64,000 nt of DNA. Origin: Carallia brachiata (taxonomy: Eukaryota > Streptophyta > Magnoliopsida > Malpighiales > Rhizophoraceae). The notes under the pieces were generated by a model that did no database searches, had not been told where the DNA came from, and saw nothing but the letters and a program-made list of their open reading frames with translations. Shown here in pieces: positions 29,887-61,680 of the stretch; position 1 is the stretch's first letter, and each line of letters opens with the position of its first letter. Where the stretch lies: contig JADCRB010000070.1 of the NCBI GenBank assembly GCA_021464245.1, positions 1-64,000 on the forward strand, read 5' to 3'. Position numbers and translations under genes: made by a program.

Positions 29887-29929
<43 letters not shown>

Positions 29930-30964: not shown

Positions 30965-30984
30965 GACGGCCGACAAGATAAGGT

Positions 30985-31923: not shown

Positions 31924-31930
31924 TGTAAAC

Positions 31931-31961
<31 letters not shown>

Positions 31962-32577: not shown

Positions 32578-32582
32578 GTCAA

Positions 32583-33119: not shown

Positions 33120-33120
33120 A

Positions 33121-34518
33121 TTTGCCTCCATAGTGGACCATGAGTCAAACTATTACGGTCCCTTATACCTGTTAACACGCAGACAAGCATTAGACCAAAA
33201 AAAAAAAAAACGAAAACGACAACACAACAAACCATTAACTTCCTCAAAAGCCACACCTACTACCGTTATGGTCACAGAAAATTAATTTAAAATCAATGTT
33301 TGAGGAAACAGTCAAGAAATTCATTCTTAGCCTAAGAGAAAATATCGTCTAAATGGTAAAATGCCACTTCAGATCGAAAAATCATATGTATTTTACATCC
33401 ATAGACAAATCCTCACTTAAATGGGTTATTTTGATATACAAAATATAAATTTCAACCATTGATTCTACTTTCTAAACAAAAAATTTATTTTCAACCCTAA
33501 CGTTAATCTTAAATCGACACCATCCTAAATAATCAACCAAATAACATATGAAAACTAATAAATCGACATCAAGAACCCTAAATCACTCACAAATTACTTC
33601 TTTGAAGTGAAATCATATGTTTTCTAGCCCAATCAAAGAGTTTCTCTTCTGAGTTCCTTTTTTCGGTGGAGAGAAATTGAAGAGAATTTACTGAAGGCTT
33701 GGTTGCAAATAATTTTAGATGTTTTTTCTTACATATATCTATGAGAATATTGTAGTCATTTCATGATTTTCATAACGATTGACTGATGACTTTTAATCAG
33801 AATATATTTTTTCTAATTTTTAAAATTAAGAAATATTAATTATAAATACACTCTATTTTTAAAATAATAAATATAAATTACCTATTTTATAAGCACCCTT
33901 GGATCCGATATCGCCGAGTAGATTAGTTTGCGTTCGAAAAAGGAAAAAGCATCTGTTCAAAAAAACAAAAAAGAAAAAAGCCACAAAAACTAGCACGCAC
34001 GACCGGCCCCCACACATTAAAGCAAGGTCCAAGTCAAGTCGGCCACTTCCTACAGTGCCAGGACAGCTTTATTTTCATTTGCTAAGATGCGGATATGCTT
34101 TTTTCTTTTTTGTTGGTGTATCTGTATTGAATATACGTCAGGCACAATATAAAAATGTATCTATTAAATATGTTTTTCATTAAAAAATTGAATTCAGTTT
34201 AAAAATTTTATAGAAACGCTAAGAACATGTTTCGAATATACCATGAAAATGCTTTAAAAAAAATAATAAAAAAGAAATTATCGATGGCCTGTTGTCCATT
34301 TCTCACGCGGACGGCAAGTCATCATTTTTTTTTTTAATTTTAAAATGAGATTATGTGAAGTATATCCATATATTCAAGTTGTATGCTCATTTTTGTTAGA
34401 TTTTAATTTACATTGCGAGATTTCAAATATAATTAACAAAATTATATCATAAAATTTATTTTAATAAAAAAAATTAAATTTAATCTAAAAATTACTTTAT
34501 AATCTATATTATAATTTA

Positions 34519-34560
<42 letters not shown>

Positions 34561-36372
34561 GTATACATATCATATTTATATTTTAATATTTTTAAAATTA
34601 ACATATTAATATATCTATGTCTATTGTATCTATCTCTACTTGCATCTACGCAGAATTGCTTATTTTCGACACGCAAGAAACAAGTCATCGCCAATCACAA
34701 TCAAATAGAGTTAGAAGCCTGCAAATCTATGGTGCTTACAGTGGAACAGCCAATGGTTGTTGCGCTATCATTGCATGGTAAGTTCACGCAGGTGGCCCTA
34801 TCTAATCCGATTATAGAATTGAAAGATTCGGAAAGTTTTAAAATACATAGATGAGGAAAATGTTTAACGCAAAAACAAAAAGCAATTATTTTTTTTGTAA
34901 TTTTTATATTTTTATTACGTATTAATCTAAACGGTATTACCTATCATAAATGACTAAAATAAAATTGTAAAAGCTTATAAAATTTACTAATAAAGTTAAT
35001 TTATAATAAATTTATACATACTATGCACTAAGAGTAATCTTGTCACTGTCTCGCCGCAATCCTCGGTTCTCTCTAGTTTTTCAATTCGAACAAGGTATGT
35101 TCACACTAGCAACTACCTTACGATAGTTCCAATTGAGAAAAAAGAAGAAAGAAAAGGAGGTTCCCAGCAGGCTCGGTTAGGCCCCATATCTTGGCTCGTC
35201 AATTTTTTTTTTTTTAAATCAATCTCATCATCAAATCTGCCCAATGAAAATCATCAAATTTGTTAGCTCACCGAATAAAAAAGGTGGTGGATTAAAGAAG
35301 AATTTTTTTTATCAAAATTAAAGACGAATTTGATGACTGAATTTAGTGCATTGTCTAGAGATATTAGGCCAAATGGACTATTTAATTGGGAGCCCAAGCC
35401 ATCTAAATTATAAAAATAACAAAAATCTAACTAATCCGACTCTTTTTTCTAAAAAATAAAACTGGCAAATAAACGATGCCCCCTATGTCTTCTATGAACC
35501 CTAATGTGTAAAAAAAAATTTTAAAAAGAAAGAAAGAAAAAGAAAAACCAGGTCTTGATCGTGAGCAACTCCATGGAAGGTCCAATTAAAGCAGACCGAA
35601 GCTATTTCATTCCAAACCATGTATGCAATTGCAACCAATTTAGACAGTGCCAAATTTTAGCAAACGCAAATGCCCAATGGTTGAGGACAAAAAAAAATTA
35701 TTGATTATTCTTCGATCATATTTATTAAATGAATCCAGACTTATTATCAGTTGAAAAAACAACATGCCAAACTACATCATTCTGAAGATGCAACAATTTG
35801 TCACCAAAGGGATTTGTATGAGCTGCTTTTGTCAACAGATGCCGATTAGGGAAAAAGGCAACCTTAAGGCAGCCTAATATTTTTACCAAATGCTCAAAGA
35901 ATATTAACAGCAACAGCAACATCTATCAGCAAAATCAAACACCCACTTATTTCTTCATTTTTGGTCTGAGAAGAAGCTGTTGAGCGATGGGCATGATTTC
36001 TATAGTCATGTTGCCAAGGCAACAAATTTCCTCAAATCGTGCTTTTCATATTTTTGCATGGTTGTCTAAAACTCCAGCAGCCCTATTCTGCTTGTTAATC
36101 CTATTTTAAGGAGGATTAAACACCAAAGACAGTGTTCTGAGTCAGATGCTCAAATTTACTCAACTAATTTGACGCAATTTGTTAATAAAAATAAAAAATC
36201 AGAAGATATATCAAGGAAGATAGAAAATTCACTTCTTTTCTTCGTCTAATACTTCCTTCATCTCGTTTCTCCTCAAAGAATGGGTTCTTAGAAAAGGCAA
36301 ATGGGATTGGAATGGAATATGTCTCGTTAAAGAAGAGGAGTGGCTATCATCAACACTATGCCGCCCTAACCA
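33121..36372 (+). repeat. Tandem duplication copy B (3.25 kb), with empty E1 site
   Basis: Matches copy A (19803-22524 plus 32583-33119) and lies head to tail with it. GTCAA at 35831-35835 is the unoccupied target of E1. No gene is recognised. A minus-strand frame ending at 35725 (HLLTKAAHTNPFGDKLLHLQ) is seen in both copies but matches nothing I know. Confidence 0.92.
34521..34558 (+). repeat. (TA)n microsatellite, copy B
   Basis: About 19 TA units, equivalent to 21208-21246. Confidence 0.9.
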
Positions 36373-39300
36373 CATCATAGAATTAATAGATCCAAAAAAC
36401 AGGCAACTAACTTGATTGGCAAACAAATCACTTGCAATTTTCCTTTTGCAACACTAATGAATATAAGGATCAGAAACCAAGACCTTTCTTTCTTTAATCT
36501 CCGCGCAAAATCGGCCATCATTTCCATCTCCTTCTGCTTTTAATCAGTTGTCTTCGTTCATTTTTGGATTTTTCTTTTTATATTTTTCATAGTATTCTTA
36601 AAATTTGTAGATTTTTTATTTATATTTTTTATAAAAATTTTCGTATCTTTTAGAAAAAAAATTAAGATTTTGTTTAATTTTCATTTAATTAAAAATAAGA
36701 AAAAACTTAGTAGTGTCATTTAAATAACTTCAAAATAGATATAAAGTAATACGAGCTGTTATATGATTAAATTTATAAAAAAAATAAAAAAAATTGATAA
36801 ACTATTAGAACTGTTAGATAAGACTATAAATTACTTGTTACCATCTATCTGAAATTATTTAGTATTTTTCTGAAAAAAATGATGACATCTAATTCTTAGC
36901 AAATCATATGCCAGCAACGTAGCTGCTACGCTAGAAAATGCAGGAGAACATGGGTCTACTGGGTTGATTTATGTCATTGATGTTAATTTTGATGTCCTAA
37001 TGGAACGCAGCGGATGGATTATTTATTTTTGCTCATACGACAAGCTTGAGGTGCGTACATGACGGTTAACTGAGTCTTCCAAGGTGCTTCGTGCATGTGA
37101 CGAATAGCTAAGTCCATGGAAAATTGACCTCCATTATTGCTAGACTTTCTTTTTTGGTAATGATTTATATTATCAAATCTGTATCATGAAATATGTCAAA
37201 ACTTATAGTTATAAAAATAATTCTCAATTTTTTTCTTTTTTGGTTTAACAGATCATGTTTAAAAAAAATTAATACTTTTCACAATTGTAAATTTTGAAAT
37301 ATTTTCTAACATAATTTTTAAAATATTTATCATTATTCTTTTTTTTTTTTTTGCTACATTGGAAAGAAATTTTCGGTAGACTTTGATTCACTAGTCTACC
37401 TCATGTTTTTTTTTTTTTTAATTATGCCACGAGACAAGTTGATTTTACTGTGATTCGCGAGATAGACGCTTGACTTTGGTCGCAAATTCCACTTTGTCAT
37501 TCTCGAATTCTAGTGTGCGTGCATGCTACGAAGAACAGAGACAACCGATCGATCGAAGCTTGAGGGTAGGCTGATTGTGCAGCGGAGGTGGCGGTAACAA
37601 TGGATGGTAAGTGGAGCGGCGGCGAGAGGAGGAGGAGTTCCTTTTGGACAGTCGTGTTAGCAGCCGTAGGAAATCTTTGATTTTATTTAATTTCTTTCAT
37701 TTTAGTTAGTTCTTTTCCATTTTATTTTAGGATGAAAATTTGGGGATTGAGGTACGAGTTAATTATAATTCAAATAGTTTATCGAATTTGTGTCAGTGGG
37801 TTTGGATTTGATTTTTGGTAACACAACTTATCTAAACATCCAACTGATTATTAATCACATATCACCATGTTACCCTAATGAAAAAGTAGGGGATTAAAAA
37901 AAAAAGTAAGAAATTAAATTTTCCAAACATATACTTAATCACACTTAATACTCTCTGAGAGAATTGAGTTCATGACTTATGGCATATAATAAACAATCTC
38001 TCTCATCACAAAACCATAATTTTTGTGACCTTTTCTTTTTCGGGAAAATAGATAAAAGAGATGTTACAAGTCATGATAAACAAACCACACTCTAATGCTG
38101 CACCGACAGTATGTTTATTCTTATTGCTTAGCTTGACACAACTTCGAACCTGTAGACCAAGCAGTTAATTACTCCAAGTGGTAGTACCGGAAGATGTCGA
38201 AGAGTTCCTCGGTGGCCTTTCTTTGTTATGACATGACGATGACTTGACTTGCCCGATGTATTTAGGTTCATACTGGAGATAGCTTATTGAATTGGGAATG
38301 GAAATTTTGTATTTAACCTTTTGTCAATGCCCAGAAAAAAATGTATTTATTGAATAAAAAAAAGTGTATTTATTGTGAGAAAGAAAGCTTGACTTTGGAT
38401 GCAAACTCTCCTTAAATATTAATGGACTTAAAATACATAGATATTACATGAAATTTGGAACATCTATTACTTCTTAATTGTGTAAAAATGTGTAATTCTG
38501 GCAACAAAGAAAATTTAACTTTCATGCAAGAGAATTAAATGTTTTACAAGTTAATTTATTACATAAAAGGCCCTCTGCGTGTGATTTCTTAACCTGACCC
38601 ATCTTCCACAAGAATCTCATGCGGACCACTACACTGGAGCAACAGACAGATAGTACAGGTTAAACGTCATGTGATTAGAAGCATCAGAATCCCATAAGCC
38701 AGTTTTCGGGATTCATTACATGGCCAAATAAAAATTTAGCTATATAATATTTATATTATAATAAATAATATATTTTATATAATTATAAATAAAAAAATAT
38801 AAATTAAAAAAATAATGATAATTTTTTTATTATATATTTTTTTATTACAGTTATACAAAATATAATAATTATTATAAATATAAATACTGTTTTGAAAAAT
38901 TTTCATCTAACATTCTTAACTGAGCTAGATGACGCGCAGTTGGCAGAAACCAGGTTTGAGTGAGTTCGAGCACAATTTTTGTCAGTGCCGCCAGGTTCAT
39001 CAAACAATTTCAAATAATTTTTAAGGACTTGGATGTTGTTTTTGTCGATAATGATTTCCACACGTGATCAAAACTTGCGATGGACCCACTGGACCACATT
39101 CTCAACATCGTCTCTTTTTCATGTGGTCCAAGAATGGTGTGTCCGATGCTTTCGCCATTTTAATGCATAATGTAATTCTTTTGAAGGGGGCAATTACATG
39201 TTTCAAAACTTTTATCTTAGAATTTTGTGTTAAATAAAATTGTAATTGTTATTTTTGAAACTGTGAATGATATTTTTAAAATGTAAAATTAACAATTGAT

Positions 39301-43173: not shown

Positions 43174-43969
43174 TGTAAACATATTAAAAAAAAAAAAAAA
43201 AGGTCAAGTCTTTTGAAATTGACAACGCCGACTTTGAAAAAAAAATTTTCAAAAAAAATATATTCCTTTCTCACGATGTTTTCACACGGGAAAGAAATCC
43301 TATAATTAGGTACCTGTCCCTCAGTTCAAAACATATTCAGCAAATCTGTAAACAGAAAAATTTAGAGAATTTGAGAGAAAAAGAAAATTTTGAAAATCTC
43401 TTAAGAAAATTTCTCATTTTCTTGCGTGCTTTTACTCTGCAGTATACTCTCCTAACTCCTTTTTGAGAGATATTTCAGGGGTAAGCCCCAAAAAATTTGC
43501 TGTTTCCATTTCTAAAATTATTTTTAGGTTTATATTCTCGGATCGCTTTAGATCTGAATTTCTGAGAATATAGATCTAAAAATATCAAATTACTACAAAT
43601 CCGGCTGAGATTAAGTCTCATACGGCCCTCAGCAAAATCCAGGCAGGTCATCCGAGAACAAGTCCCTTCGACCCTCGGTGAAATTAAGTCAGATCGGCTC
43701 AGATCAGATCTCTGTGGTTCTTAACCATAGTCAAAACGTCCAAATCAGATCTGGTTTCAGTCTACCCAGTTCAAGAAAAAGTTGTGAAAATTATTTCTGT
43801 CAAGATCAAACTCGTACAGCCCTTGACGGAGTCAAAAAAGGAACACTAATCGGAAGATCTACGGAGATCAACCCCACGTAAATTTTCTTTTATTTTTAAA
43901 TTTTTATTTGTAATTTATTTTTTGTATTTTCTAGTTTAATTGTTTTAGACTCGAAATTTACTCGTTACA
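43174..43969 (+). repeat. E2 5' LTR (796 bp)
   Basis: Starts TGTAAACATATTAAAA and ends CTCGTTACA. Compared with the 3' LTR it lacks about 20 bp of one hairpin arm, and the TATA box is altered (CTATAATTAGG at about 43300-43310 instead of CTATAAATAGG). The shared R/U5 region starts near 43596. Confidence 0.92.
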
Positions 43970-44193
43970 AATTTTTGGCACGCCGGATGGGACATCTTCA
44001 CCTCCCATCTCTTGTTCCTAAAAAAAAAAAAAAGAGGTAAAAGGGGAGCCGAGAGAAAAAAAAAAGAAAAAAAAAGAAAAAGAAAAAAAAGTAAAAAGTA
44101 AAAGTAAAAAAAAAAAAGTAAAAAGTAAAAAAGTAAAAAAAAGGTTAAAAAAAAGTAAAAAAAAAAAAAATTTACAGGTGTTCAGCACATCAA
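43970..44193 (+). other. E2 leader: primer binding site and A-rich GTAAAAA repeats
   Basis: AATTTTTGGCACGCCGGATG follows the LTR, matching the E1 PBS region with small changes. Then an A-rich stretch broken by GT, G and GG, and TTTACAGGTGTTCAGCAC before the ATG. Confidence 0.55.
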
Positions 44194-45800
44194 ATGGCAC
44201 CGAAAAGGAGTACAACTGCTGCCACAAAAAAGAAGACAACGGCTCCACTGCCTGCATCAACTATCCTACCTGGGTACGCAGGTTCAGAAACTCTGGGACG
44301 GACACAATTTCTTGCCGTCCAAACCCGACAAACATTCGAAACGGAGAGTCACAGCTTGCACCAACAGGACTCTCCCCTGACTCTCTTGCCGCATGGAGGA
44401 GGAGTAGATCACCCACCCCGATTGAAGTTGGGGGCAACACAACGAAGCCCGCTCAACAGAATCCAACTTATTCTGTAAAGATCCACACAGAGGAATCAGA
44501 AGAGTTCTCTCCCCCAGTCTTTCGCGGAGCCTCGTCTGTTGCCGTCATGATGACCAACACAACCAGTACAGAAGAAAGAATTTCAGAACTGGAGAACAAG
44601 ATTTTGCAGCTAATCAGAGTCGTGGAGGAAAAAGATCAACAGATCGCCGCTCTCAAAGGAAAAGCTCCGATCCAAATTGATCCCGAGATCCGCGAAGAGC
44701 AACCATATCCACCCGGTTTCACTCCAAAAGCCACACCAGCCGACGTCTTCACTGCAGAAAAGCGACCAGGTAGTTCTACACAGCTGCCACCCTCGAATTC
44801 TATAGCTTCGCTATCTGTTCAACAATTGCAGGAAATGATAGCTAATACGATCCGCCTGCAACAAGCTACATCCTTCCAAGGATCACAGATGTACGTCAAA
44901 CCGTACACCAGACGGATCGAAAGTCTCAACATGCCTTGGGCTACCAGCCGCCCAAATTTCAACAATTCGACGGACGAGGCGATCCTAAACAGCACATCGC
45001 CCACTTCGTTGAAACCTGCAACAACGCAGGGACTTATGGAGATCTCTTGGTGAAGCAGTTTGTTCGTTCACTCAGGGAGACCGCTTTCACCTGGTTCATA
45101 AATCTTGAACCAGAATCGATCGACAGTTGGGAACAGCTACAACGAGAGTTCCTCAACAGATTTTTCAGCACTCGAAGGACGGTAAGTATGATGGAGCTTA
45201 CCAGCACCAAACAAAGGAAAGGAGAGCCCGTTGTCGAATACATCAACAGATGGCGTGCCCTCAGCTTGGACTGCAAAGATCCTGACGGAGACTTCTGCCG
45301 TGGAGATGTGCATCCAGGGAATGCATTGGGAGCTGTTATACATCCTGCAGGGTGTCAAACCCCGAACCTTCGAAGAACTGGCGACCCGCGCACATGATAT
45401 GGAGATAAGCATCCAGACTTCCGGAGGCACGGTTCCCATCCAGTTGGACCAGCAAGGAGGCAGAAGGGAGATTAAGAAACCCAACAGTTCTGGAAAAGGA
45501 AAAGAAGTGATGACTGTTGAAGCCGCACCAGTAAAAGTGGGAGCTAAAGCCAAGGTAAATCCTCCGACTCAAATAACTCACCTAAAACAACAGGAAAGGC
45601 GGAATGTGACATTGCGAGAGTTGGAGCAGAAGCAATATCCATTCCCCTACTCAGACGTCCCCGACATTCTTGAACAACTCCTAGAGGCGAAGCTAATCGA
45701 ACTCTCAGAGTGTAAGCGGCCAAATGAAAAGGATCGAGTCAACGATCCAAGATTCTGCAAATATCACCGGATAGTAAGTCATCACCGAGAAGTGTTTCGT
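44194..45800 (+). pseudogene. E2 gag, frameshifted
   Basis: ATG at 44194 (MAPKRSTTAATKKK). Frame changes lie near 44350, 44935, 45285 and 45783. The coiled coil (EERISELENKILQLIRVVEE), capsid domain (FQQFDGRGDPKQHIAHFVET) and the first part of the C-H-H-C motif (CKYHRIVSH at about 45756) are present, with bases missing in the last. The N-terminal third differs from E1 by several percent; the capsid part is nearly identical to E1. Confidence 0.8.
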
Positions 45801-46085
45801 TGAAGGAGCTAATCATGAAGCTCAAAAGCCAGAATAAAATCATTCTGGACCAGGAAGGCATAACTTCTGCAAACCAGACCACCATCACTTCAAAACCATC
45901 AGAAGAGGTGACACATCATAAGGAGGAGCCGCTCGACAACAAAAAGTCGACTACGGAGAAGGTATATGAAGCTCTCCAAACCCTTCTCGCTAACCCTCAG
46001 CTGTTTATAGCTTTGCAATCAACAGAAGTGTGGCAAAATCAAGTCAGCAATACTCTCCAGACCTCAGCTGAATCACAGTCATCAA

Positions 46086-46970
46086 ATGATTCTAACTCAG
46101 CGGAGCAGCAGGCGGACCAAAATCGTCGGATGTTACTCTGCTATCTCATTTTCAGATGAGGATCTCCTGCTGGGGTCCAAACCGCACAATCGGCCGCTGT
46201 ATGTATCAGGCTATGTGAGAGAGCAGAAGGTCCGACGTATTCTGATCGACGATGGCTCAGCAGTCAATATTATCCCAAAATCCACCATAAAGGAGCTCGG
46301 CATCGGCATTGATGAATTATCAGACAGCCGCTTGATGATTCATGGCTTTAATCAAGGAGGACAGAAAGCAATTGGGATGATTCGCTTGGAGCTAACTATC
46401 GGTAATCTCACTTCTAGCACTCTATTTCATGTGATCGATGCACGTACCACATATAAGATGTTGCTAGGACGACCGTGGATTCATGGAAATGGAGTTGTGC
46501 TCTCAAGCCTGCATCAGTGCTTCAAGTACTACAATGGTGGCGTTCAAAAGGTCAATGCTGACTTAAAGCCGTTCGATGATGCTGAATCACATTTGGCGGA
46601 TGCAGTCTTCTACACCGACACAGACAATCCGGAGATCATTCCATCAAAAGCTACTTGGACTGGGGGCATCCACAAAAAGGGAAAAGCTGTCGAAGAACCT
46701 GCCAATGCCCAACCCCAGGCTCCAACAAATGAAAAGCTGCCACAGCCTGCTGAACTTCGTCCGAAGGATGTTGCATCTTCAAGCTCCACTCCAGTCCTAC
46801 GCTATGTGCCGAAGTCACGACGCTCAGAAGGTCAACCCCCTTTCTCTTATTGTATTGATCTAAACAGGAGCAAGGATAGCCAACCCAAAACAAAGGAGCT
46901 GCACAACCTGAAGGAGACTTACACTCTGCCGATACCAAAGATTGAGCCGGTTTTGTCTCAAAACCATTAA
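46086..46970 (+). pseudogene. E2 protease region
   Basis: An open 294-codon stretch that contains DDGSAVNIIP (DDGS codons at 46248-46259) and MLLGRPWIHG, so the protease domain itself is intact. The frame closes at 46970 because bases differ from E1 in VLSQNH/VLSSKPLK, before the RT. Confidence 0.8.
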
Positions 46971-47349
46971 AAGGCTTCGTCAAACCACACACGGGGGCAG
47001 TCGAAGGCGGCTCACTTCCAGAAAGAAGAACACATGAAGGATTTGATCCTAATGCATACAAGCTTTTGGCAAGGCGGCTATGACTTCTCAAACCCGAGCA
47101 CAATGGGTACGCTGCCGTCCACACATGGCGCCTTCTCAAACATCACAGTCCCGACCTGGCTTAGGCTATCAGGAGAAGTCACCTGTGCGGATCACGCTAA
47201 AGAGCCGAAGCCGAGCAGCTGATGCACGTGCCATCACCACCACCACCAAACAAGACAGGCTTATCCAGTCAAACAAAGAAGGTGAAGTCAGAGGCTGCAT
47301 TTCATGTCACAATTAGCGAGGAGGCTGATCCGACTCATCAGATGGTGAA

Positions 47350-48880
47350 GTGAAGGAGGCTCCCCCGGAACTTGAAGATGGTGGCCAAGCAACTGTTGAT
47401 GAACTCAAGGAGGTCAATCTTGGCTCTCCGGAAGATCCTCGACCTACATTTGTAAGTGCTTTACTTACTGCAGAAGAAGAGCAAGAATATGTTCAGGTAT
47501 TAAGTCAATACAGGGACGTGTTCGCATGGAGTTACAAAGAAATGCCTGGACTTGACCCAAAAATTGCGGTGCATCGTCTAGCAGTAAAGAAGGGTGTTCG
47601 TTCTGTCAAGCAGCCACAACGACGGTTCCGCCCGGAACTCATTCCACAAATCGAGGAGGAGGTGAACAAGCTGATCAATGCTGGCTTCATCCGAGAGGTC
47701 ACCTACCCAACGTGGATTGCCAACATTGTCCCGGTAAGAAAGAAGAATGGACAGTTGAGGGTATGTGTTGATTTTCGAGATCTTAACAAGGCCTGCCCGA
47801 AAGATGACTTTCCATTGCCCATAACGGAGATCACAGTCGATGCAACAACGGGTCACGAAGCATTGTCCTTCATGGATGGTTCTTCAGGCTATAACCAAAT
47901 CAGAATGGCACCAGAAGACGAGGAGTTGACAGCATTCCGCACCCCAAAAGGTATATACTGCTACAAAGTTATGCCGTTTGGATTGAAAAATGCTGGCGCC
48001 ACTTATCAACGTGCTATGCAAAAAATTTTTGATGACATGCTGCACAAGATTGTAGAATGTTATGTTGATGACTTAGTTGTAAAGACTAAGAAGCGCAAAG
48101 ACCACCTCGAGGATCTCAAGACAGTGTTCGAAAGACTTCGGAGGCATCAGCTCAAAATGAACCCTCTCAAGTGCGCATTCGGTGTCACATCAGGAAAGTT
48201 TCTTGGGTTCGTGGTGCGCCATCGTGGAATCGAAGTTGATCAGTCAAAGGTTGAGGCAATTCAAAAGATGCCTGAACCTAAAAACCTGCACGAGCTGCGA
48301 AGTCTACAAGGAAAGCTGGCCTACATTCGCCGTTTCATCTCCAATTTAGCTGGGAGATGTCAACCTTTCCATCGGTTGATGAAGAAGGATGTCAACTTCG
48401 AGTGGGACGAAGCTTGCAGCAAAGCCTTTGAGAGCATAAAGAAGTACCTTTCCAATCCACCGTCCTAGGGCTCCAATTCAAGGAAAGTCGTTGATTCTCT
48501 ACATTGCAGCGCAGGAAAGATCTTTGGGAGCCTTGCTTGCACAGGAAAACGAGCAGGGAAAGGAAGTTGCCCTGTACTACTTGAGCAGAACACTAAACGG
48601 TCCGGAGCTGAGTTATTCGCCCATTGAAAAGACATGTCTAGCACTGTTCTTTGCCATTGACAAGCTGAGGCACTACATGCAAGCTCACACGGTACGTCTC
48701 ATTGCCAGAGCTGATCCTGTCAAATATATCTTATCTAGACCAATCTTGTCAGGACGACTTGCCAAGTGGGCAGTAATCCTACAAAGCTACGACATTGTCT
48801 ACGTGCCTCAAAAAGCAGTCAAAGGACAAGCTCTAGCAGACTTCCTTGCAGATCACCCTGTTCCGTCAGATTGGGAGTTC
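47350..48880 (+). pseudogene. E2 reverse transcriptase and first RNase H
   Basis: 47350-48468 is one open frame through the whole RT (VRKKNGQLRVCVDFRDLNKA, YCYKVMPFGLKNAGATYQR, YVDD at 48061-48072). One base is missing near 48462 relative to E1. RNase H then continues in the frame from 48491 (LYYLSRTLNGPELSYSPIEK). Substitutions versus E1 are almost absent over about 1.1 kb of RT. Confidence 0.87.
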
Positions 48881-49363
48881 ACAGATGATCTTCCAGATGA
48901 AGAGGTCTTTTACATTGAGACACTGCCACCATGGACGATGTTCTTTGATGGTGCAGCAAGGCGTGATGGTGCTGGTGCTGGCGTAGTATTTGTCACTCCT
49001 CAATGACAAATACTACCATATGCTATCATACTCGGTGAGTTATATTCAAATAATGTTGCTGAATATCAGGCTTTAATCATTGGCCTTCAAATGGCTGTCG
49101 ATATGAAGATTCCAACTATAGAAGTCCATGGAGATTCCCAGCTCGTCATCAACCAACTTACAGGATTGTATGACGTGAAGAAAGAGGACCTTGCGCCTTA
49201 CCATCAACGTGCTCGACAGCTAATGGATGAATTTGAAAGCATCACCTTGGAGCATGTGCCTCGACGAGAAAACACTCAGGCAGACGCGTTGGCTAACCTG
49301 GCCACTCTCTTGCAAAGTCAGAAATCCAGGCTACAGTTGTTGCCGTATGCCAGAAATGGATAG
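48881..49363 (+). pseudogene. E2 second (archaeal-type) RNase H
   Basis: Encodes WTMFFDGAARRDGAGAGVVF, then an in-frame TGA at 49004-49006 (CAATGA where E1 has CAACGA), then NNVAEYQALIIGL, VHGDSQLVINQLTGLYDV and RRENTQADALANLATLL to 49363. This copy is better preserved than E1 in its second half. Confidence 0.8.
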
Positions 49364-49599
49364 TGCCACAGAAGGATGATGAAGAAACTACAGCAGCCAA
49401 CGCTGTATCTGTACGTCTCGCGGAGGACGAGGATTGGCGCCAACCAATCATTGACTACCTACAGCACGGGAAGCTGCCCGAAGATCGTCGTCATAAGACA
49501 GAAATTCAACGACGAGCTCCCCGCTTCATATATCTCAAGGATGCTCTGTATCGAAGATCTTTTGATGGAGTTTTACTTCGCTGCCTAGCAATGAAGAGG

Positions 49600-50650
49600 C
49601 AAAACAGGCTCTCACTGAAGCACATTCTGGTGTTTGTGGCGGACATCAATCGGGCCTAAGTTGCACTTCCAACTCAGAAGGATGGGATACTACTGGCCAA
49701 CCATGGTACGTGATTCAATTGAGTTTGCTAAAACTGTCAAGCTTGTCAATTTCATGCCAATTACATACATCAACCACCGGAGCCACTGCATCCAACTGTC
49801 TCATCCTGGCCCTTTGAAGCTTGGGGTCTCGACTTAGTGGGGCCCTTGCCAAAGTCATCCCTGGGTCACCTGTACATCCTCGCAGCAACCGACTACTTCT
49901 CAAATATGGGCTGAAGCCATTCCACTTAGAGAGGTAAAGAAGGAGCATGTTGCCAATTTCATCCGGACTCAGCTGATCTATCGCTATGGAGTCCCTCGAT
50001 TCATCATCACTGATAATGGTAAGCAGTTCTACAACAGCTTAATCGACAAGCTCTGCGAGAAGTTCAAGTTCAAGCAGTACAAGTCATCCATGTACAATGC
50101 CCCAGCAAATGGCTTGGCCGAAGCATTCAACAAGACCTTATGCAACCTGTTGCGGAAGGTAGTCTCTAAATCCAAAAGAGATTGGCATGACAGAATTCCG
50201 GAGGCATTATGGGCGTATCGTACAACTTACCGGACTCCAACACAGGCGACGCCATACTCACTTGTCTACGGTGTCGAAGCAATACTGCCGTTGGAAACAC
50301 AGATTCCATCCCTGCGCATGGCTGTTCTGGAAGGACTCACACAGGAGGAGAATGCTCGCCTACGTCTGGATGAGTTAGAAGCTCTCGATGAAAGGAGGCT
50401 CGAAGCACAACAGCAACTTGAGTGCTACCAAGCCCGGCTCACCAACACGTTCAACCGCAGGGTCCGCCCTCGATCTTTTCAAGTTGGAGACCTTGTTCTT
50501 GCAGTGCGACGGCCCATCAACATGAAGCATCGGCCTGGTGACAAGCTTACTTCCAAATGGGACGGGCCATACTAGTGCAGGAGGCCTATACTCACAACGC
50601 TTACATGCTGTCAGACCAAGAAGGCGTCCGAATCGGCCCAATCAATGGTA
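49600..50650 (+). pseudogene. E2 integrase, frameshifted
   Basis: The zinc-binding part (49620-49800) is split between frames. One extra base in TCAAATATGGGC (49900 region; E1 has TCAAAATGGGC) alters the start of the core. The core continues through IITDNGKQFYNSLI and 50090-50575 is open (NGLAEAFNKTLCNLLRK ... FQVGDLVLAVRRPINMKHRP). The C-terminal segment ends near 50650. Confidence 0.8.
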
Positions 50651-50683
50651 AATTTCTGAAACAGTATTATGTGTAAATATGTT

Positions 50684-50710
50684 TAAAAAAAAAAAAATCA
50701 AAAAAAAAAT

Positions 50711-50753
<43 letters not shown>

Positions 50754-51045
50754 CGGAAGTCCCGATCTGAAAGTCCAAGCGAAAATCCAAACCCGAAAAT
50801 CCAAGCCCAAACAGTTGAGCCCAATTCAGAAAACTCAAAGCCCAACTCAAAAGCCTGAAAACTAAGTCTAGACTCAAAACCCAAACACTCAACCCAAATC
50901 CAAAAGTCCAAGTCCAAAACCCAAACACTCGACCCAAATTCAAAAATCTAAGTCTAGAAGTCTAAACACTCGACCCAAATCCAATCCAAACCCAAAACCC
51001 AAAAATTCCAAGTTCCAAACACAGTCCAGAACCCAAGTTTAAAAT
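50684..51045 (+). repeat. E2 A-run and CCAAACACTCGA-type minisatellite
   Basis: A-runs at 50684-50750, then degenerate repeats (AACCCAAACACTCGACC, CAAGTCCAAAACCC, AAGTCTAGAAGTCTAA). The copy number and order differ from E1, so this is a fast-changing part of the family. Confidence 0.8.
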
Positions 51046-51095
51046 CCAATCCAACTCCTGGCCCGCATGAGTATAAACTGTGAACGACCCAAAAA

Positions 51096-51102
51096 TATAA
51101 AA
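51096..51102 (+). promoter_or_regulatory. TATA-like box upstream of the E2 WOX ORF
   Basis: TATAAAA in CCCAAAAATATAAAAACAAC, 96 bp before the ATG and conserved with E1. Confidence 0.4.
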
Positions 51103-51191
51103 ACAACGGAGGGTTTGAGTCTGAAACTCAGCATCAGTCTCAACCGATCTTCACCACATACCAAGACCTTTGCTCCTCTGCCACAAGAAAG

Positions 51192-51815
51192 ATGGAACCA
51201 GTTGCAGAACCTCAAGACAAGGGAGAAGAAAGGTCACCCCGTATAAGGTGGCAACCGACCATGGCACAACTGCAAATTTTGGAGGAAGTCTTCCACAACA
51301 ATGGAGGTATTATTCCTAATGCATCTCAAATTTACCAACTTGTCTCACAATTGCGCCCGCTCGGGGCAATCGAAGGAAAAAATGTGTTTTATTGGTTCCA
51401 GAATCGGAGAAGCAGGAAGAAACCAGCACTGAGAACTACTTTTTCCAAAGAACAGTCTATCGTTCTGATAGTAGATCCCACCGGTACAGCTTCACCCTCA
51501 AATGAAGCAGGTCTGAGTTCTTCCACTGCAATGGTCTCTCCACGGTATGTTCATCAAAGCCGTAGCCCATGGAAGCATGCATGCTGGTCCTGGTGGTTTT
51601 ACGGAGTCAGCCAAGGGTTCATCCTTCCTAGGTACTTAAGTCTAGGAGGAATTTTTCTAGCAGAAAGGAGTTATTCCGGCGAAACTTTACCTCTCTTTCT
51701 AGAATATTCCGGCAGCATCAACCAGCCGGAAAGCGACGTCGACGTTGAACTCAACATCATCGGCCCACCAGACGAGGTCGAGCTTGACTTGGAGTTGCGC
51801 CTCGGGCCCTGCTAG
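51192..51815 (+). CDS. WUSCHEL-related homeobox (WOX) protein captured by retrotransposon E2, 207 aa, open frame
   Basis: The ATG at 51192 opens an uninterrupted 207-codon frame ending at TAG 51813-51815. Residues about 17-79 form a WOX homeodomain: RWQPTMAQLQILEEVF (helix 1), ASQIYQLVSQLRPLG (helix 2), then IEGKNVFYWFQNRRSRKK (helix 3). IEGKNVFYWFQN is typical of the WUS clade; RRSRKK is closer to WOX8/9/11-type homeodomains. Residues 165-170 are TLPLFL (51684-51701), a WUS-box with the last proline changed; E1 keeps TLPLFP. Residues 198-205 are LDLELRLG, an EAR-like repression motif, in the usual WUS order. The gene is intronless, in sense with pol, 540 bp downstream of integrase. WUS-clade proteins are nuclear repressors/activators that keep stem cells. 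Whether this one is expressed is unknown; capture from a host mRNA is inferred. Confidence 0.88.
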   Translation: MEPVAEPQDKGEERSPRIRWQPTMAQLQILEEVFHNNGGIIPNASQIYQLVSQLRPLGAIEGKNVFYWFQNRRSRKKPALRTTFSKEQSIVLIVDPTGTASPSNEAGLSSSTAMVSPRYVHQSRSPWKHACWSWWFYGVSQGFILPRYLSLGGIFLAERSYSGETLPLFLEYSGSINQPESDVDVELNIIGPPDEVELDLELRLGPC

Positions 51816-51836
51816 GACGGCCGACAAGATAACGTG

Positions 51837-51910
51837 CAACGACTTTGGCAGCACACGGTAACGACTTCTGCAGCACACGGCAACGACTTCTGCAACACAC
51901 GGTAACGACT
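51837..51910 (+). repeat. E2 22-bp tandem repeats after the WOX gene
   Basis: About three and a half units of AACGACTTCTGCAGCACACGG. Unit number differs from E1. Confidence 0.85.
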
Positions 51911-52729
51911 TTTGTGACACGCGTCAGCCGCTGCCTCTTTTGTCTCTTATGCAGGAAAGGGACGTGGATGACCCTACTCGATTCTGCGTACCTTCTTTTT
52001 GAATTTTCAAAAAAAGAAAAAAAAAATCTTTATATATATCTTGTATTCCCGAGTTGTAATACTCACCCCTCAACTCTTCTTTCTCAAAAGAAAATGGCTA
52101 GTCTCTACGCTTGTCTGAGGAAGTTCTTTGAATCAAGAAGTTGGAGGCGCACGAGCTAAGAAAAGAAGGAGTAGTCTTCTTCGAGGGATCCCTAAAAGCC
52201 CTCGAAACTCAGTCTCCAACTACTCTCTTTAGTTCACATCTACCACAGAGGGATGAGAACCTGCAATCATCATAATCTTCCTTTGGATGCGGCAACGTAC
52301 AGGGAAGTTCCAACTACTCTCCTTACGTCAAAGCAGACTTGGGAATCATCACTACAGTCAGTCTCTCTGTGTGCCGGTTTTGAAGTTCCGAGGTGCTGGG
52401 CCTTCTTCTTGGGGAGGTTTAAGTTTTTTGCCTACCGGATCATTCTCACTAGAGCTTTGAAACTTCAAAGAACCTTTGCCAGCCTTTACGAGCCATGGAA
52501 GCTCGAACGCACCTGGAGCCAGAATGTCAATTTTTATATTGGCTAGGGTGCTAACTTTCTCAAGATCGTATCGGATTCTTATTGCGATCCAACAACAGCA
52601 GACATAGACAGAGTTAGAAGATTTCAACATTCAATGTTCATCAGGACATCTCAAAGTTTCAAACTGGACTTCAAGATTCGGTGCGGATTTGTAAAGTTCT
52701 TCCTTACCGACCCTTGAAGTGGGGGCATT

Positions 52730-53543
52730 TGTAAACATATTTAAAAAAAAAAAAAAAGGGTCAAGTCTTTTGTCGGCGTTGCCAATTTCAAAATTGGCAA
52801 CGCCGACTTTGAAAAAAAATTTTCAAAAAAAATATATTCCTTTCCAATGATGTTTTCACACGGGAAAGAAGCCCTATAAATAGGCCCCTGCCCCTCAGTT
52901 CAAAATATATTCAGCAAATCTGTAAACAGAAAAATTCAGAGAATTTGAGAGAAAAAGAAAATTTTGAAAATCTCTCAAGAAAATTTCTCCTTTTCTTACG
53001 TGCTTTTACTCTGCAGTATAATCTCCTAACTCCTTTTTGAGAGATATTTCAGGGGTAAGCCCCAAAAAATTTGTTGTTTCCATTTATAAAATTATTTTTA
53101 GGTTTATATTCTCGGATCGCTCTAGATCTGAATTTCTGAGAATATAGATCTAAAAATATCAAATTACTACAAATCCGGCTGAGATTAAGCCTCATACGGC
53201 CCTCAGCAAAATCTAGGCAGCTCATCCGAGAACAAGTCCCTTCGACCCTTGGTGAAATTAAGTCAGATCGACTTAGATCAGGTCTCTGCGGTTCTTAACC
53301 GTAGTCAAAACGTCCAAATCAGATCTGGTTTCAGTCTACCTAGTTCAAGAAAAAGCTGTTGAAATTATTTCTGTTAAGATCAAGCTCGTACAGCCCTTGA
53401 CGGAGTCAAAAAAGGAACACTAATCGGAGGATCTACGGAGATCGACCCCACGTAAATTTTCTTTTATTTTTAAATTTTTATTTGTAATTTATTTTTTGTA
53501 TTTTCGAGTTTAATTGTTTTAGACTCAAAATTTACTCGTTACA
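52730..53543 (+). repeat. E2 3' LTR (814 bp)
   Basis: Starts TGTAAACATATTTAAA after the polypurine tract AAGTGGGGGCAT and ends CTCGTTACA before GTATG. Contains a 36-bp near-perfect hairpin at 52772-52807 (17-bp arms GTCGGCGTTGCCAATTT, 2-nt loop) and TATA box TATAAATA at 52875-52882. Confidence 0.92.
52772..52807 (+). repeat. Inverted repeat (hairpin) in E2 3' LTR
   Basis: Perfect 17-bp arms around CA. The 5' LTR has lost most of the left arm. E1 LTRs have two other palindromes at the same relative place. Confidence 0.9.
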
Positions 53544-55245: not shown

Positions 55246-55250
55246 TGCGA

Positions 55251-55677
55251 TGTTAGATTTAAACATAAATCTAATCAATCATCAAATATAATTTTAGGAT
55301 CTTGAAACTGAATAAAATCATATAATAAACGATAAACGATATACCTGAATTAGCGGAAGATATAGCCATTATGCGTCGGAATAGAGACTAAGACCTTTCG
55401 TAACCTTATAACTGATTTCTCTCTCCTGACCTTTACTGTAATCACACATTATAGATAGAGTTTTCGTGTATATGGAGGCAGAGAGAGGACCAGCTATATA
55501 TATACAAAACTTTAGGGTTTTTAGACCTAATTCAGTATGTCCATCAATACTGAGATCAACGGACGAGATTGATTTAATTAATTATTTCCTTATTAATCGG
55601 ATCACATTAATAATATTCCTTAACGTAAGCATTCTTTGAGTCTACTCCAAGGAATACTAATTGGGAATATTCTAACA
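55251..55677 (-). repeat. Copia left (3') LTR
   Basis: 427 bp, TGTTAG...CTAACA. Aligns to 61134-61561 with about 14 substitutions. Confidence 0.95.
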
Positions 55678-56089
55678 TTCTCCCACTTGATCCGATTATA
55701 ATTCATTACTTTAATCGTTATGCGCAAATGACGATAATAACCAATCTCTTGTCGTTTATCATAATGCCACAATATATAAACTGTTAGTGCGAGTTATGGC
55801 GGTCATACCTATTAATTCAGAATACTCCCTTCCATATACCACAACACTTGCAGATTACCATATCAGGCTCATAAGGTAATATATGAAACACAATTCATAA
55901 TGGTCCACAATAATGTCTCATAGAGACTTTCCTGTTAACTTTAAAACTTTAAGTGTACACAATCATGAGATAACAGGAAAACATAATGTATATCAGAAAC
56001 ATATAAATGAGCTCAGAGTGTTATTACAAGCATAACATATCAATCATCAATACAACCAAGTCCCATCCTAGAACATGTCTCTAAAAGAC

Positions 56090-57540
56090 TTAGGTTGTAA
56101 ACCTTTTGTTAAAGGATCTGCAACATGAGATCCGTACTAATATGCTCAATAGACACTCTCTGCTTCTGAACCTCCTCCTTAACGGCAAAATACTTTAATT
56201 CCATATGCTTGGCACCCTTTGAGTATTTGTCGTTCTTAGAGAAGAATACTGCTGCAGAATTATCACAGTAAATTTTCAGCGGCTTGATAATGGTGTCGAC
56301 AACCCCAAGTCCTGAAATAAAGTTCCGCAGCCATAATGCATGAATTGTAGCCTCAAAACATGCTACAAATTCTGCTTCCATAGTGGATGAAGCAATGATA
56401 GACTGTTTCGCACTTTTCCATGAAATTGCTCCTTCAGCTAATAGGAACAGATAACCAAAAGTGGATTTTCTGCTATCAAGGCATCCAGCAAAATCTGAAT
56501 CCGAATATCCAATCACTTCTAAAAGGTTGGATTTTCTGTACGTGAGCATGTAGTTCTTTGTTCCTTGCAGGTACCTCATTACTTTCTTTGCAGCTTTCCA
56601 ATGATCCATTCCAGGATTGCTTTGATCTGCCCAGCATTCCGACCGCAAAGCTGATATCCGGTCTAGTGCAAGTTTGCAGATACATCAGGCTACCAACAAC
56701 AGAGGCATATGGATTGACTCCATTGCCTTACGTTCCACATCATTCTTGGGACATTGCATGAGACTGAATTTGTCACCCTTCTGTACAGGAGCAATCCCAG
56801 GTGAACACTTATCCATATTAAACCTCTCTAGAATTTTCTCGATATAGCCTTTTTGAGACAATCCTAACATTCTTGTGATCTGTCACGGAAATCTCTATTC
56901 CTATCACATAGGATGCCTCTCCCATATCCTTCATTTCAAAATTCTTTGAGAGAAAATCTTTAGTCTCATGCAACATACTCAATCATTAGCAGCAAGCAAA
57001 ATGTCGTCAACATATAGGACTAGAAAGATGAACTTACTCCCACTGATCTTTTGGTATATACACTGATCAACAGTGTTTTCCTTAAAAAAAAGATGTAATG
57101 ATATCATTGAACTTAATATACCATTGTCGGGAAGCTTGTTTCAGTCCATATATTGACTTCTTTAATTTACACACCAACTGTTCTTTTCTTTTATGGAAAA
57201 CCCTCAGGTTGATCCATATAAACTTCCTCTTGAGATCTCCATTAAGAAAGGCGTTTTCACATCCATTTGGTGTAACTCCAAATCATATTGAGCCACCAAA
57301 GCCATAATTATCCTTAATGAATCCTTTTTCGAGACCGGAGAAAAAGTCTCTATATAGTCAATGCCACTCTTCTGAGTATAACCCTTGGCAACAAGTCTAG
57401 CTTTATATCGTTCGATATTGCCATTGAGTCGCGTTTGTCTTAAAGACCCATTACAACCAACTCTTTTACAACCTTCTAACAATTCGACAGATCCCAGACT
57501 TTTCTTTTCCATGGATTTCAACTCTTCTTTCATGGCATCA
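56090..57540 (-). pseudogene. Copia reverse transcriptase and RNase H, broken
   Basis: The RT N-terminus is at 57533-57204 ([36 protein letters not shown]). The RT active site LVLYVDDIL is at about 57030-57000, outside any long frame. RNase H at 56685-56109 carries CTRPDISFAVGML, YSDSDFAGCLDSRKSTFGYL and IASSTMEAEFVAC, with CDNSAAVFFSKN. The segments are in different frames. The order and motifs are those of Copia pol. Confidence 0.85.
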
Positions 57541-58063
57541 ACCCATTTTCAGATTCAGTACTTTCTATGGCTTGTGAAAAGAAACTGGATCCTTATTGAT
57601 TCCATATCGAAATCTGACTCTTGCAAATAAACCACATAATCGTTAGGAATAGCTGATCTCCTTTCTTTTGAGATCTTCTTAATGCTACTTCTTGTGGTTC
57701 ATGTGCATTATTCATTGGTGGGTTAGTCTCTTCAGGGAGTATTCTTCATCCAAATGCTTCCATTTCTGGAACAACATTTGGTGTTGTAGTGGATGAAGAA
57801 CTGTTATGGGTAAAGGAACATTTACCCTTATTTCCTTTATTTCCACTCTTGGCGTTCATTACTCCCACTAACCTCGTCATTCTCAATGAATCTTGCATTT
57901 CCAGTTTCTACTATTCTCGGACCATGGTTTGGGCAATAGAACATATACCCTTTAGACTTCTCTGGGTAACCAATAAAGTAACCACTGATCGTTCGAGAGT
58001 CTAATTTCTTTTCATGTGGATTGTAAATCCTCGCTTCCGCTGGGCAACCCCAAACATGGTGCC

Positions 58064-58660
58064 TTAAACTAGGTTTCCTTCCTGTCCATAGTTCAATAGG
58101 GTACTTTGAACTGCCTTACTAGGAACCCTATTAATTAAATAATTTGCGGTTTTGAGTGCATACATCCACAAAAATTTGGGTAGAAGAGAGTTACTCATCA
58201 TACTCCTAACCATATCCATTAATGTCCGATTCGCCTTTCTGCCACACCATTTTGTGAGGTGTGCCTGGCATAGTATACTGTGCACATATGCCATGACTTT
58301 CGAGGAATTTCGCAAATGGACCTGGACACTGCCCTGACTCATTATATTTGCCATAATATTCACCACCTCTATCAGATCTTACAATCTTCACTTTTCTGTC
58401 TAATTGCCTTCAACCTCCTTTACGAATACCTCGAGGGCATCTAATGATTGAGATTTTTCATGAAGCAAATAGACATAACCATAACGTGAAAAATCATCTA
58501 TAAAGGTGATGAAATATTTTTCTCCATTAAGGGCTGGAGTGTCAAACGGTCCGCATATATCGGTGTGTATAATTTCAAGAAGCTGGGTGCTTCTTGTGGC
58601 TCCTTTCTTACTGTGTTTAGTTTGCTTTCCCTTAATGCAATCTACACACATTCCGAAATC
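58064..58660 (-). pseudogene. Copia integrase, broken
   Basis: 58651-58400 encodes the end of the zinc-binding domain and first catalytic D (CVDCIKGKQTKHSKKGA, HTDICGPFDTPALNGEKYFI, DDFSRYGYVY). 58391-58064 encodes the second D (VRSDRGGEYYG) and, in a shifted frame, RTLMDMVRSMMSNSLLPKFL. The E-bearing segment (family text NGVAERRN) is damaged at about 58245. Confidence 0.85.
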
Positions 58661-58990
58661 AGTAAAATTAGATTCGGGAGAATCTCATTGCTTACTAATC
58701 TCATCAATCTTTCTCTGGATATAACCCAGACGTTTATGCCACAAGTAAGCAGAATTTCATCCATCGTACTACGTTAATTCCAGTATGATGTACATAAAGT
58801 AAGGATTCAGCAAACACATTGTCAAGTTTCAATTTATATAAACCATCAATAAGAATACCAGAACCAATAATATGAGTATTCTTATAAACTAAAATTGCAC
58901 ATCCAAATTAACATTAAACCCAGAATTATCCAATTTGGAAACAGAAATAAGGTTCCTTGAAACTGAAGGTACATAAAGAGTCTAATAGGT

Positions 58991-60000
58991 CTAAATGATA
59001 GCCAGTATCCAAGACCAAACGATAAGTCCTATGCCTTCAATTGGAGCCTTCATACGATTTCCCATAGAGAGAAAATCCTTAGTTGGGTTTGTGGTTTGGA
59101 TCGTAATGAATCCCTGCATCATATTGGATACATGAGTAGTAGCACCAGAATCAAGCCACCAAGTATTATGAGGAACTTCAGCTAAATTTGATTCGAAACA
59201 TACTAAGGCATTAAATTTACCTTTCTTTTCGAACCAAGACTTTCGTTCAGGCAGTCTTTCTGATAATGTCCAACCTTCTTGCAGAAGTGACATGTATCAC
59301 CCTTTCGTTCCTTCTTTCCAGCCTGAGAAGCATGAGCAGGCTCTTTCCCTTTTTGAACTGGTTGGCTTTGACTTTCATGGCTTTCCCAGCTTTCTTTCCC
59401 ACGAGATTAATAGAGTGACTCTTTTGACTTTTCAATCTCGTTTCCTCCTGAACAAGCATACTGGCCAATTCATTAATATTCCACTTATCCTTTATAGTGT
59501 TATAATTAATTTGAAATGGCCCATACTCAGAAGGTAGCGTTCAAAATGAACTGCACAGAAAAGAGTCCTCCACTGTCAATCCCAGGGTCTTAAGTCTTGC
59601 TGCTATATTAGTCATCTCAATAATGTGCTCTTGCATAGTTCGCGACCCATAAACTTCATGGTTGTGAGCTCTGCCATAAGAGTACCAGCAAGTGACTTAT
59701 CCGCAGAACGGAAACGTTCTTCCACAGACTGCAAAAATTGTTTTGCACTTTCTGTCGGTGGAATTGTTGACTTAATGTTGTTGGCAACAGTCATCTTTAG
59801 AAACATAAGGCTTAATCTGTTACTTCGTTCCCATGCCTTATGATGTAACTTCTCTGCCTCGCTGCTTGAGTCAGTAATAGCAGCAGGCTTCTCCGTTAAT
59901 AGTGCCAAGTCAAGATCCATAACACCTAAGTGGAAATTGACTTGTTCACGCCATTCAGAGAAGTTCAATCCATTGAACACAGCAACAGAGGAAGCATGCG
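58991..60000 (-). pseudogene. Copia gag and protease, broken
   Basis: 59980-59612 encodes the gag UBN2-type capsid region (FNGLNFSEWREQVNFHLGVM, SLMFLKMTVANNIKS). No in-frame ATG precedes it, only a TAG a few codons upstream. The zinc knuckle CHFCKKVGHYQKDC lies at about 59291-59250, and the protease active site WWLDSGATTHVSNMM at about 59160-59115. The three parts are in different frames. Confidence 0.8.
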
Positions 60001-61133
60001 ACTAAACGGAAATAGCTGCACAATAAATGCTCATAATTAATCATAACTCGGATTCAATGAACAGTTGAAGCATATTACAGTTCTCCTTTGGGAAATACTA
60101 TAATATACTATCATAAGTAAATACCATATAATCAATTAATAGGTAATTAAATATTTTTTTCAATTAAATATATTTGATATCTTTGGATAAACAAATATAT
60201 TCAACTAAAAATACTAATATACCTCGATTACTTTACTAATCACAGAATAATAATTTACCTTTGGGTAAATCCTGTAGTTCCAATAATTAGTAACGTCAAT
60301 TTATCCAATCATTTTTTTTTGTGGTATTTCATTATAATCATGGATAAATGACTATTTATGTGTGCCATCGAACATACTAGTTTGGCCACTTTGGTGACTA
60401 ACAAACTATAAACATAATTATACAAACATTTTAACCAATCATTCAAGTTTGGTCACTTTGGTGACTGCAAACTATTAATATAACATACGCATGAAATAAT
60501 TTAAATTCAAACATCATCAATACATGCATAATAAAACAGTACTCATAACACATACATGCTTTCGAGTCGTAAAAGATTATTAGTGAGATCTAATTATAAC
60601 AATAATTTTAAATAATAAAAATTAAATCTCAAATAACAGTAATCAACTATCTTTAACAAATAATAATCTTAAATTCGGAACCCACAAAAATATAAAATTG
60701 ATACATCAACTTCAGTACAAAATACCAGCCACTGTAGCTTACACGTTCAAAAGAAATATTCCTTCACAGAAATTGCAATTTCAACTGGCTTGCCGTGTGC
60801 ACTGTGCTCTCTTGCAGTAACAATTTTTTTTTTATTAAACCTCAATCGGTCTGTTTCTATTGAATTCATAATTTCTTTTAACTGTACAGCCTTAATAGTG
60901 AAACTAATTCCTTTTATTTCATTAAAACATCATCAATAAAGTTACGGTTCTTACCATTAGCCGAGGACATCAAAATCTAAATGGATAATATATGTATATG
61001 AGGCTAATCATGAATATGGCCGAGAGGAATCAATGGAATCATATTATAATATAAAAGACCATGAATCAAGTATATACGTTCTTTATCATACATAGAAAAT
61101 ATTCAGTTTCAAAACGCATACTCTGATACCACA
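60001..61133 (-). other. Copia 5' untranslated leader and primer binding site
   Basis: AT-rich, without coding potential. Next to the right LTR, the minus strand reads TGGTATCAGAGTATGCG (initiator-Met tRNA PBS). A repeated phrase GTTTGGCCACTTTGGTGACT / GTTTGGTCACTTTGGTGACT occurs at about 60381 and 60449. The leader is long for a Copia element. Confidence 0.55.
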
Positions 61134-61561
61134 TGTTAGATTTAAACATAAATCTAATCAATCATCAAATATAATTTTAGGATCTTGAAACTGAATAAAA
61201 TCATATAATAAATGATAAACAATATACCTGAGTTAGCAGAAGACATAGCCATCATGCGTCGGAATAGAGACTAAGACCTTTCGTAACCTTATAACTGATT
61301 TCTCTCTCCTGACCTTTACTGTAATCACACATTATAGATGGAGTTTTCGTGTATATGGAGGCAGAGAGAGGACCAACTATATATATACAAAACTTTACGG
61401 TTTTTTAGACCTAATTCAGTATGTCCATCAATACTGAGATCAACGTACGATATTGATTTAATTAATTATTTCCTTATTAATCGGATCACATTAATAATAT
61501 TTCTTAACGTAAGCATTCTTTGAGTCTATTCCAAGGAATACTAATTGGGAATATTCTAACA
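61134..61561 (-). repeat. Copia right (5') LTR
   Basis: 428 bp, followed by the TGCGA duplication. Confidence 0.95.
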
Positions 61562-61680
61562 TGCGAAGGCCAGAAGCGAATAGACCCGTAGAGTCTAGAG
61601 ATGGCTCTCTCGTGGATGAAATACCACTGCGCCCCCCCCCCCACACTTTCCTTGGCATGCTTAATAATAAATAATATTAT

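Follow-up and report, generated by a model that had tools for sequence, protein, structure and literature searches.

A WUSCHEL-type homeobox gene carried as an extra open reading frame by Tat-type LTR retrotransposons of Carallia brachiata

Steinbauerova reportedly described, in 2011, extra open reading frames (ORFs) such as LOGL4 in Athila elements and histone H3 in chromoviruses; these are host-gene-like, as is the frame described here, but involve other genes and other lineages. Within the Tat family, Phalaenopsis has Ogre/Tat-like elements that carry an ORF for an AlkB-type m6A demethylase (PMC9289625). Both cases involve a Tat-family element and a host-type extra ORF kept over several rounds of replication, but the Phalaenopsis frame encodes an RNA-demethylase domain, whereas the one presented here encodes a developmental DNA-binding transcription factor. 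Retand elements, also Tat kin, likewise have extra coding sequence between pol and the 3′ LTR, and include members without gag or other domains. According to the Retand survey, those ORFs of this region that have a recognised domain (TRP28 and others) run antisense, and no sense ORF there encodes a known domain (PMC11963269); the ORF here is, unlike those, in sense and of WOX type. In searches of the open-licence PMC literature, judged by titles and opening lines of abstracts, no paper described a plant LTR retrotransposon with a homeobox gene, and words starting with homeo or WUS(CHEL) occur 0 times in the main texts of five papers on extra ORFs or gene capture (PMC7264820, PMC11728184, PMC13317346, PMC11963269 and PMC9289625). 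Tat-family elements were already known to carry host-gene-like extra ORFs; what appears to be new here is a WOX homeobox gene as such an ORF.

The window, by which we mean the whole 64,000-nucleotide stretch of C. brachiata DNA analyzed (contig JADCRB010000070.1), contains two such elements on the plus strand, E1 (22525–32577, TSD GTCAA) and E2 (43174–53543, TSD GTATG). The 5′ and 3′ LTRs of E2 (43174–43969 and 52730–53543, both plus strand) show 38 differences over 753 aligned bases (5.0%), and the E1 pair diverges by 2.5%. Internally, and also on the plus strand, E2 contains gag (44936–45397; Pfam Retrotrans_gag), pol sequence for reverse transcriptase and the first RNase H, in an interrupted frame (47350–49006), and the C-terminal part of integrase (50090–50575), recognized by its resemblance to a pol relative and without a Pfam match. 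E1 has an integrase piece (29022–29705; Pfam rve) and a second RNase H, the mark of Tat elements (28039–28416, plus strand; RVT_3, 2.4e-12), which is located between RNase H and integrase (tested in E1). The domain order is that of gypsy elements (gag, protease, reverse transcriptase, RNase H, integrase), with broken frames, protease under the Pfam cut-off and integrase detected by Pfam in E1 only. By LTRs and TSDs, domain order and RVT_3 in E1, E1 and E2 are Tat-type Ty3/gypsy LTR retrotransposons; relatives at about 81% occur in Malus and elsewhere. In both TSD-bounded elements, a WOX gene lies between integrase and the 3′ LTR, in sense relative to pol, as an earlier note on this DNA had proposed.

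Identity between E1 and E2 is patchy: the LTRs differ by 21%–23%, most pol windows by ≤1% and the WOX region by about 4%–6%. Across the pol block (46200–50600), most 300-base windows are ≤1% different, yet there are about 31–33 small indels against 29 substitutions. The pattern points to conversion, recombination and/or assembly indel errors in repeats; frame breaks in this assembly are to be read cautiously. E1 is itself inserted in a tandem LTR structure (19803–36375), at the junction of its internal and LTR sequence; the structure comprises ORF-poor internal sequence of 2.7 kb at 19803–22524 and 33121–35835 (97% alike) and LTR-like copies of 545 bp at 32578–33121 and 35831–36375 (99% alike). 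Elsewhere in the window, an approximately 1.3-kb repeat pair (12251–19687, about 90%) surrounds minus-strand ORFs that look gag-like by eye and is probably an older LTR element, and 430-bp repeats (55250–61562, 96.7%) flank a minus-strand pol piece that looks copia-like by eye.

The extra ORF of E2 (51192–51815, plus strand) is an uninterrupted frame of 207 codons, and it is a WUSCHEL-type homeobox gene. Its sole Pfam match is the homeodomain (PF00046, 1.3e-12; residues 17–77 in Pfam, taken here as 51246–51428 on the plus strand, residues 19–79; recognition helix NVFYWFQN), and it matches two solved sequences, WUSCHEL (WUS; 7.2e-17), the best PDB match, and STENOFOLIA (5.7e-16). An AlphaFold2 model reaches pLDDT 94–97 across most of the homeodomain, with the remainder low-confidence, and the top Foldseek matches of the model are WUS homeodomain chains. 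In frame with the homeodomain and 3′ of it are a WUS-box-like TLPLFLEY (51684–51707, plus strand) and, further 3′, an EAR-like LDLELRLG (51783–51806, plus strand). The earlier note had read an open 207-codon frame, a WOX homeodomain and the C-terminal LDLELRLG from this sequence, all of which we confirm, with WOX the best match in the homeodomain search. Its further statement that E1 has the same gene at the same place is correct for the position (30348–30964, plus strand); the E1 frame is open only through the homeodomain and is broken behind it by several small indels. A chance ORF is ruled out by the homeodomain matches in Pfam and the PDB, together with the finding that 0 of 2000 shuffled pol–3′ LTR regions contained a comparable sense ORF. 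The three antisense ORFs of E2 that were scanned (73–91 aa) gave no Pfam match to TRP28, though assembly indels may have disrupted reading frames there.

A protein database search with the ORF returned 20 matches, all with local identity ≤52%, and the best 120 of 3359 matches in a larger search were WUS/WOX, uncharacterised homeobox or unnamed proteins; the viral and prokaryotic contig collections searched gave no match. The protein is like WUSCHEL and WUS-clade WOX proteins in its homeodomain fold and length (the latter equal to that of WUS), in IEGKNVFYWFQN, and in having a WUS-box and then an EAR motif, with the order kept. It is unlike WUS in that its homeodomain matches at ≤32 of 61 positions and has QNRRSRKK where WUS has QNHKARER, in being short, and in being encoded by a multi-copy gene within a mobile element.

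Searching the 337.5-Mb host assembly with the ORF, an approach that favours intact copies, gave 2285 first-look candidates, from which 150 near-full-length copies were scored. Nearly all of these span residues 1–206 at 84%–94% identity (the query itself apart), and 105 are without an internal stop. The retro-WOX family therefore numbers well above one hundred copies in the host, and the 150 scored copies rule out an accident confined to the two in the window, for which the earlier note had allowed. The note's claim that the gene belongs to a Tat-type element family and is no chance insertion is borne out by RVT_3, by the copy number and by the flanks of the copies, whose pol side resembles E2 at 6 of 7 loci. 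For alignment, we hand-picked 60 copies from the 149 non-window rows, thinning near-identical ones and leaving 89 rows outside; the aligned set comprises 61 ORFs. An internal stop is absent from 47 of the 60, and 55 begin with Met as cut.

A second sample, blind to frame, was collected through the 132 bases upstream of the ATG (1109 candidates, 40 scored, 98%–100% identical); removing the window copy and three already in hand left 36. All 36 have the ATG, and 18 are stop-free up to codon 79. Since a stop-free copy may still be out of frame, the homeodomain was counted separately: it is entirely in frame in 8 (10 by a looser test). At least 195 codons can be read in five copies, four of which have the homeodomain in frame. 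Frameshifting indels number 131, 72 of them in codons 1–89, and are not depleted in the homeodomain. They may reflect decay or assembly indels; one-base deletions fall at homopolymers in 46 of 93 cases against 25% expected, an excess suggesting that assembly error may explain some of the frameshifts. One copy represents a young insertion, with 2 mismatches over the 861-column alignment of its LTR pair; four further pairs are 89.5%–92.9% identical, a pair having been found for 5 of 10 copies tested at the distance fetched.

Among 20 further copies, pol is present within 3 kb upstream in 15 and absent there in five. LTR pairs flank all six pol-less copies examined (those five and locus L003), and WOX-carrying pol-less LTR elements of about 4.6–5.9 kb are found at L010, L019, L028, L044, L061 and L068. 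Two pol-less carriers have a gag stretch and four have no gag or pol match save a short integrase-end remnant; such elements would need help from others in order to transpose. Compared with E2, their LTR, leader, gag and spacer sequences are about 69%–83% alike. Just 5′ of the ATG, by contrast, ~138 bp are 94%–97% identical to E2 in five carriers and 90% over 204 bases in C77; WOX and this upstream stretch travel together into short pol-less elements. In E2, the stretch (51060–51191, plus strand) contains TATAAAA at 51096 and is a candidate promoter; E1 and E2 show 2 differences over 129 aligned bases there. From the sequence we infer that the ~138 bp may provide WOX with its own promoter, and the simplest reading is that a WOX cassette with this putative promoter is common to elements with and without pol.

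Across the 61 aligned copies, the WUS-box reads TLPLFPEY in 44 and fits TL-x-LFP in 48, and LDLEL is kept in 58, a conservation seen only among copies that were selected for full-length similarity. A (DV)n repeat at residues 180–190 varies in length by whole codons among these copies. The residues with which WUS reads DNA, namely R38, Y86, Q89, N90 and R94 according to PMC7203112, are retained in 59–61 of the 61. At ORF residue 17, the position equivalent to S36 of WUS, 60 of the 61 copies have Arg; replacement of S36 by Arg moved WUS towards typical TAAT binding (PMC7203112). With this Arg and the retained R94, the retro-WOX protein would be expected to bind TAAT better than WUS does.

To assess selection, we counted nonsynonymous (N) and synonymous (S) variants, dropping multi-change codons and columns with fewer than 40 (61-ORF set) or 20 (frame-blind set) copies. 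In the 61 ORFs, the homeodomain counts are 3N:8S (omega about 0.15) for variants found in at least four copies, 7N:10S for variants in two or three copies, and 27N:13S for singletons (omega 0.85; Fisher p = 0.014 versus the rest). The frame-blind sample gives shared variants of 3N:6S against singletons of 32N:5S (p = 0.003), the latter being above neutrality, perhaps through misalignment beside indels. The shared variants on which both contrasts draw are few, 11 and 9, respectively. Outside the homeodomain, shared variants of the frame-blind sample are 32N:13S, and the comparison of homeodomain with outside reaches only p = 0.053. For the linker and C-terminal part, shared omega is 0.7–1.2 over both samples (0.7–0.8 in the 61 ORFs), with no clear constraint. 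Frame-blind copies differ from E2 by substitutions at 3.2% in codons 1–89 and 6.0%–6.1% beyond, and the E1 and E2 homeodomains differ by 6S:3N (p = 0.015). In simulations of neutral divergence to the distance between retro-WOX and WUS, the ORF stayed open in 0.3% of runs. Because shared homeodomain variants are mostly synonymous and singletons are not, the homeodomain seems to have been under purifying selection while the family propagated. The comparison of N and S among copies that the earlier note had proposed thus points to constraint in the shared variants but not in the singletons.

The best homeodomain identity among 131 WOX-type proteins collected is 32 of 61 residues (52%), and with identity to WUS no higher than this, the capture was not recent. 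Homeodomain trees place retro-WOX on the side of WUS and the modern clade, away from WOX11-type proteins (98/94 and 97/94). The retro-WOX branch is long (about 1.1), a split joining retro-WOX with the WOX11-type (76/80) occurs in the same unrooted tree, and retro-WOX may lie just outside the modern clade. An AU test rejects none of the placements tried (WUS, 0.16; WUS+WOX7, 0.35; WOX3, 0.18; WOX5, 0.22), and the WUS-like homeodomain length is also found in some WOX2 proteins. By motif and resemblance to family sequences, we take the host WOX genes to be two WUS, two WOX1, WOX2, WOX3, two WOX4 and WOX5. Retro-WOX groups closely with none of the host WOX genes found, and a recent origin from a gene now in the host is unsupported. 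The phylogeny suggested as a means of finding the donor therefore yields a side of the WOX tree and names no host gene. Among the collected WUS/WOX proteins, those closest to host WUS are two Erythroxylum proteins, a resemblance that would place the host in Malpighiales, probably close to Erythroxylaceae.

The earlier note had envisaged capture of a host WOX transcript. A transcript would be one possible source: splice-site-like strings inside the ORF also allow capture at the DNA level, and the 32 of 61 identity is too low for a recent capture. In both host WUS genes, more than 1 kb of DNA separates the homeodomain from the WUS-box; we read this as introns. Inside the retro-WOX ORF lies a 119-base stretch (51545–51663, plus strand) with a donor-like GTATGT and an acceptor-like TTTTTCTAGCAG, which may be an intron or an unconstrained linker. 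Among the 61 copies, GGTATGTT is present in 51 and the acceptor-like ATTTTTCTAGCAG in 35, and five share a stop inside this stretch, 5′ of the WUS-box and EAR motif. Against an intron, the frame continues through the stretch, the nearest CAG acceptor would shift it, the AT content (0.52) matches that of the rest, and codon scores are better for the ORF frame.

We consider it an evenly balanced proposition that a Tat-type LTR retrotransposon long ago acquired a WUS-clade WOX gene and that the family has since carried it, between pol and the 3′ LTR, as an accessory gene acting in trans for the element. The protein would be made from its own short upstream promoter, enter the nucleus and bind WUS-type DNA sites through its homeodomain; family knowledge suggests that it would then repress through the WUS-box and EAR motif by recruiting TOPLESS. 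Acting in trans, it might increase the permissiveness of host cells towards the element, probably in meristems. Judging from the conserved residues and motifs, a trans-acting nuclear WUS-type DNA-binding repressor is the most likely product. The main competitor, somewhat unlikely but with an appreciable chance of being right, is a passenger gene copied with the element and without a present role, its apparent constraint arising from chance, gene conversion or recent shared ancestry. Such a gene would fit the 28 of 36 frame-blind copies in which the reading frame is not maintained through the whole homeodomain, the unconstrained linker and C terminus, and the patchy E1/E2 identity (pol mostly ≤1% different, LTRs 21%–23%), a sign that conversion or homogenisation occurs. 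It fits poorly with the different N:S balance of shared and singleton homeodomain variants, seen in both samples, the near-universal retention of the DNA-reading residues, the upkeep of WOX in pol-less elements whose LTRs have otherwise diverged, and an E2 ORF that is open at ≤52% homeodomain identity to WUS.

Two further roles start from DNA binding. It is improbable that the protein acts on its own element, binding that DNA to regulate how it is transcribed or silenced in the manner of retroviral regulatory genes, even though WOX travels with its ~138-bp upstream stretch and extra ORFs of Retand elements with predicted DNA binding have been proposed to be regulatory (PMC11963269). TGAA, TGAA pairs, TAAT, TTAATGG and TTAATSS showed no significant enrichment in the four LTRs or the E2 pol–3′ LTR region, a result that counts against self-binding through LTR sites as far as WUS motifs represent the site of this diverged homeodomain, which may differ. 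WUS functions include keeping viruses out of stem cells. That the protein is a decoy, occupying WUS sites and blunting such functions, is very unlikely: constraint on the homeodomain and not clearly on the effector region would suit it, as would the stop ahead of the WUS-box and EAR motif in 5 of 61 copies, but TL-x-LFP and LDLEL persist in 48 and 58 copies, and a homeodomain so strongly unlike that of WUS makes common sites only putative.

The accessory gene acting in trans can also be given a more specific form. The plant germ line is set aside late, from shoot meristems maintained by WUS. A selectively kept, trans-acting WUS-like regulator could reprogram or pre-empt the host stem-cell programme and so favour copies in meristem and germ-line-founding cells, one cassette serving elements with and without pol; we regard this as a distinctly doubtful extension. 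If a mobile element indeed carries and selectively retains a WUS-type homeodomain, it would offer a direct handle on the route by which plant retroelements reach heritable cells, and would exemplify a parasite putting a host master regulator to its own use. Moreover, WOX gene counts of plant genomes can include transposon genes.
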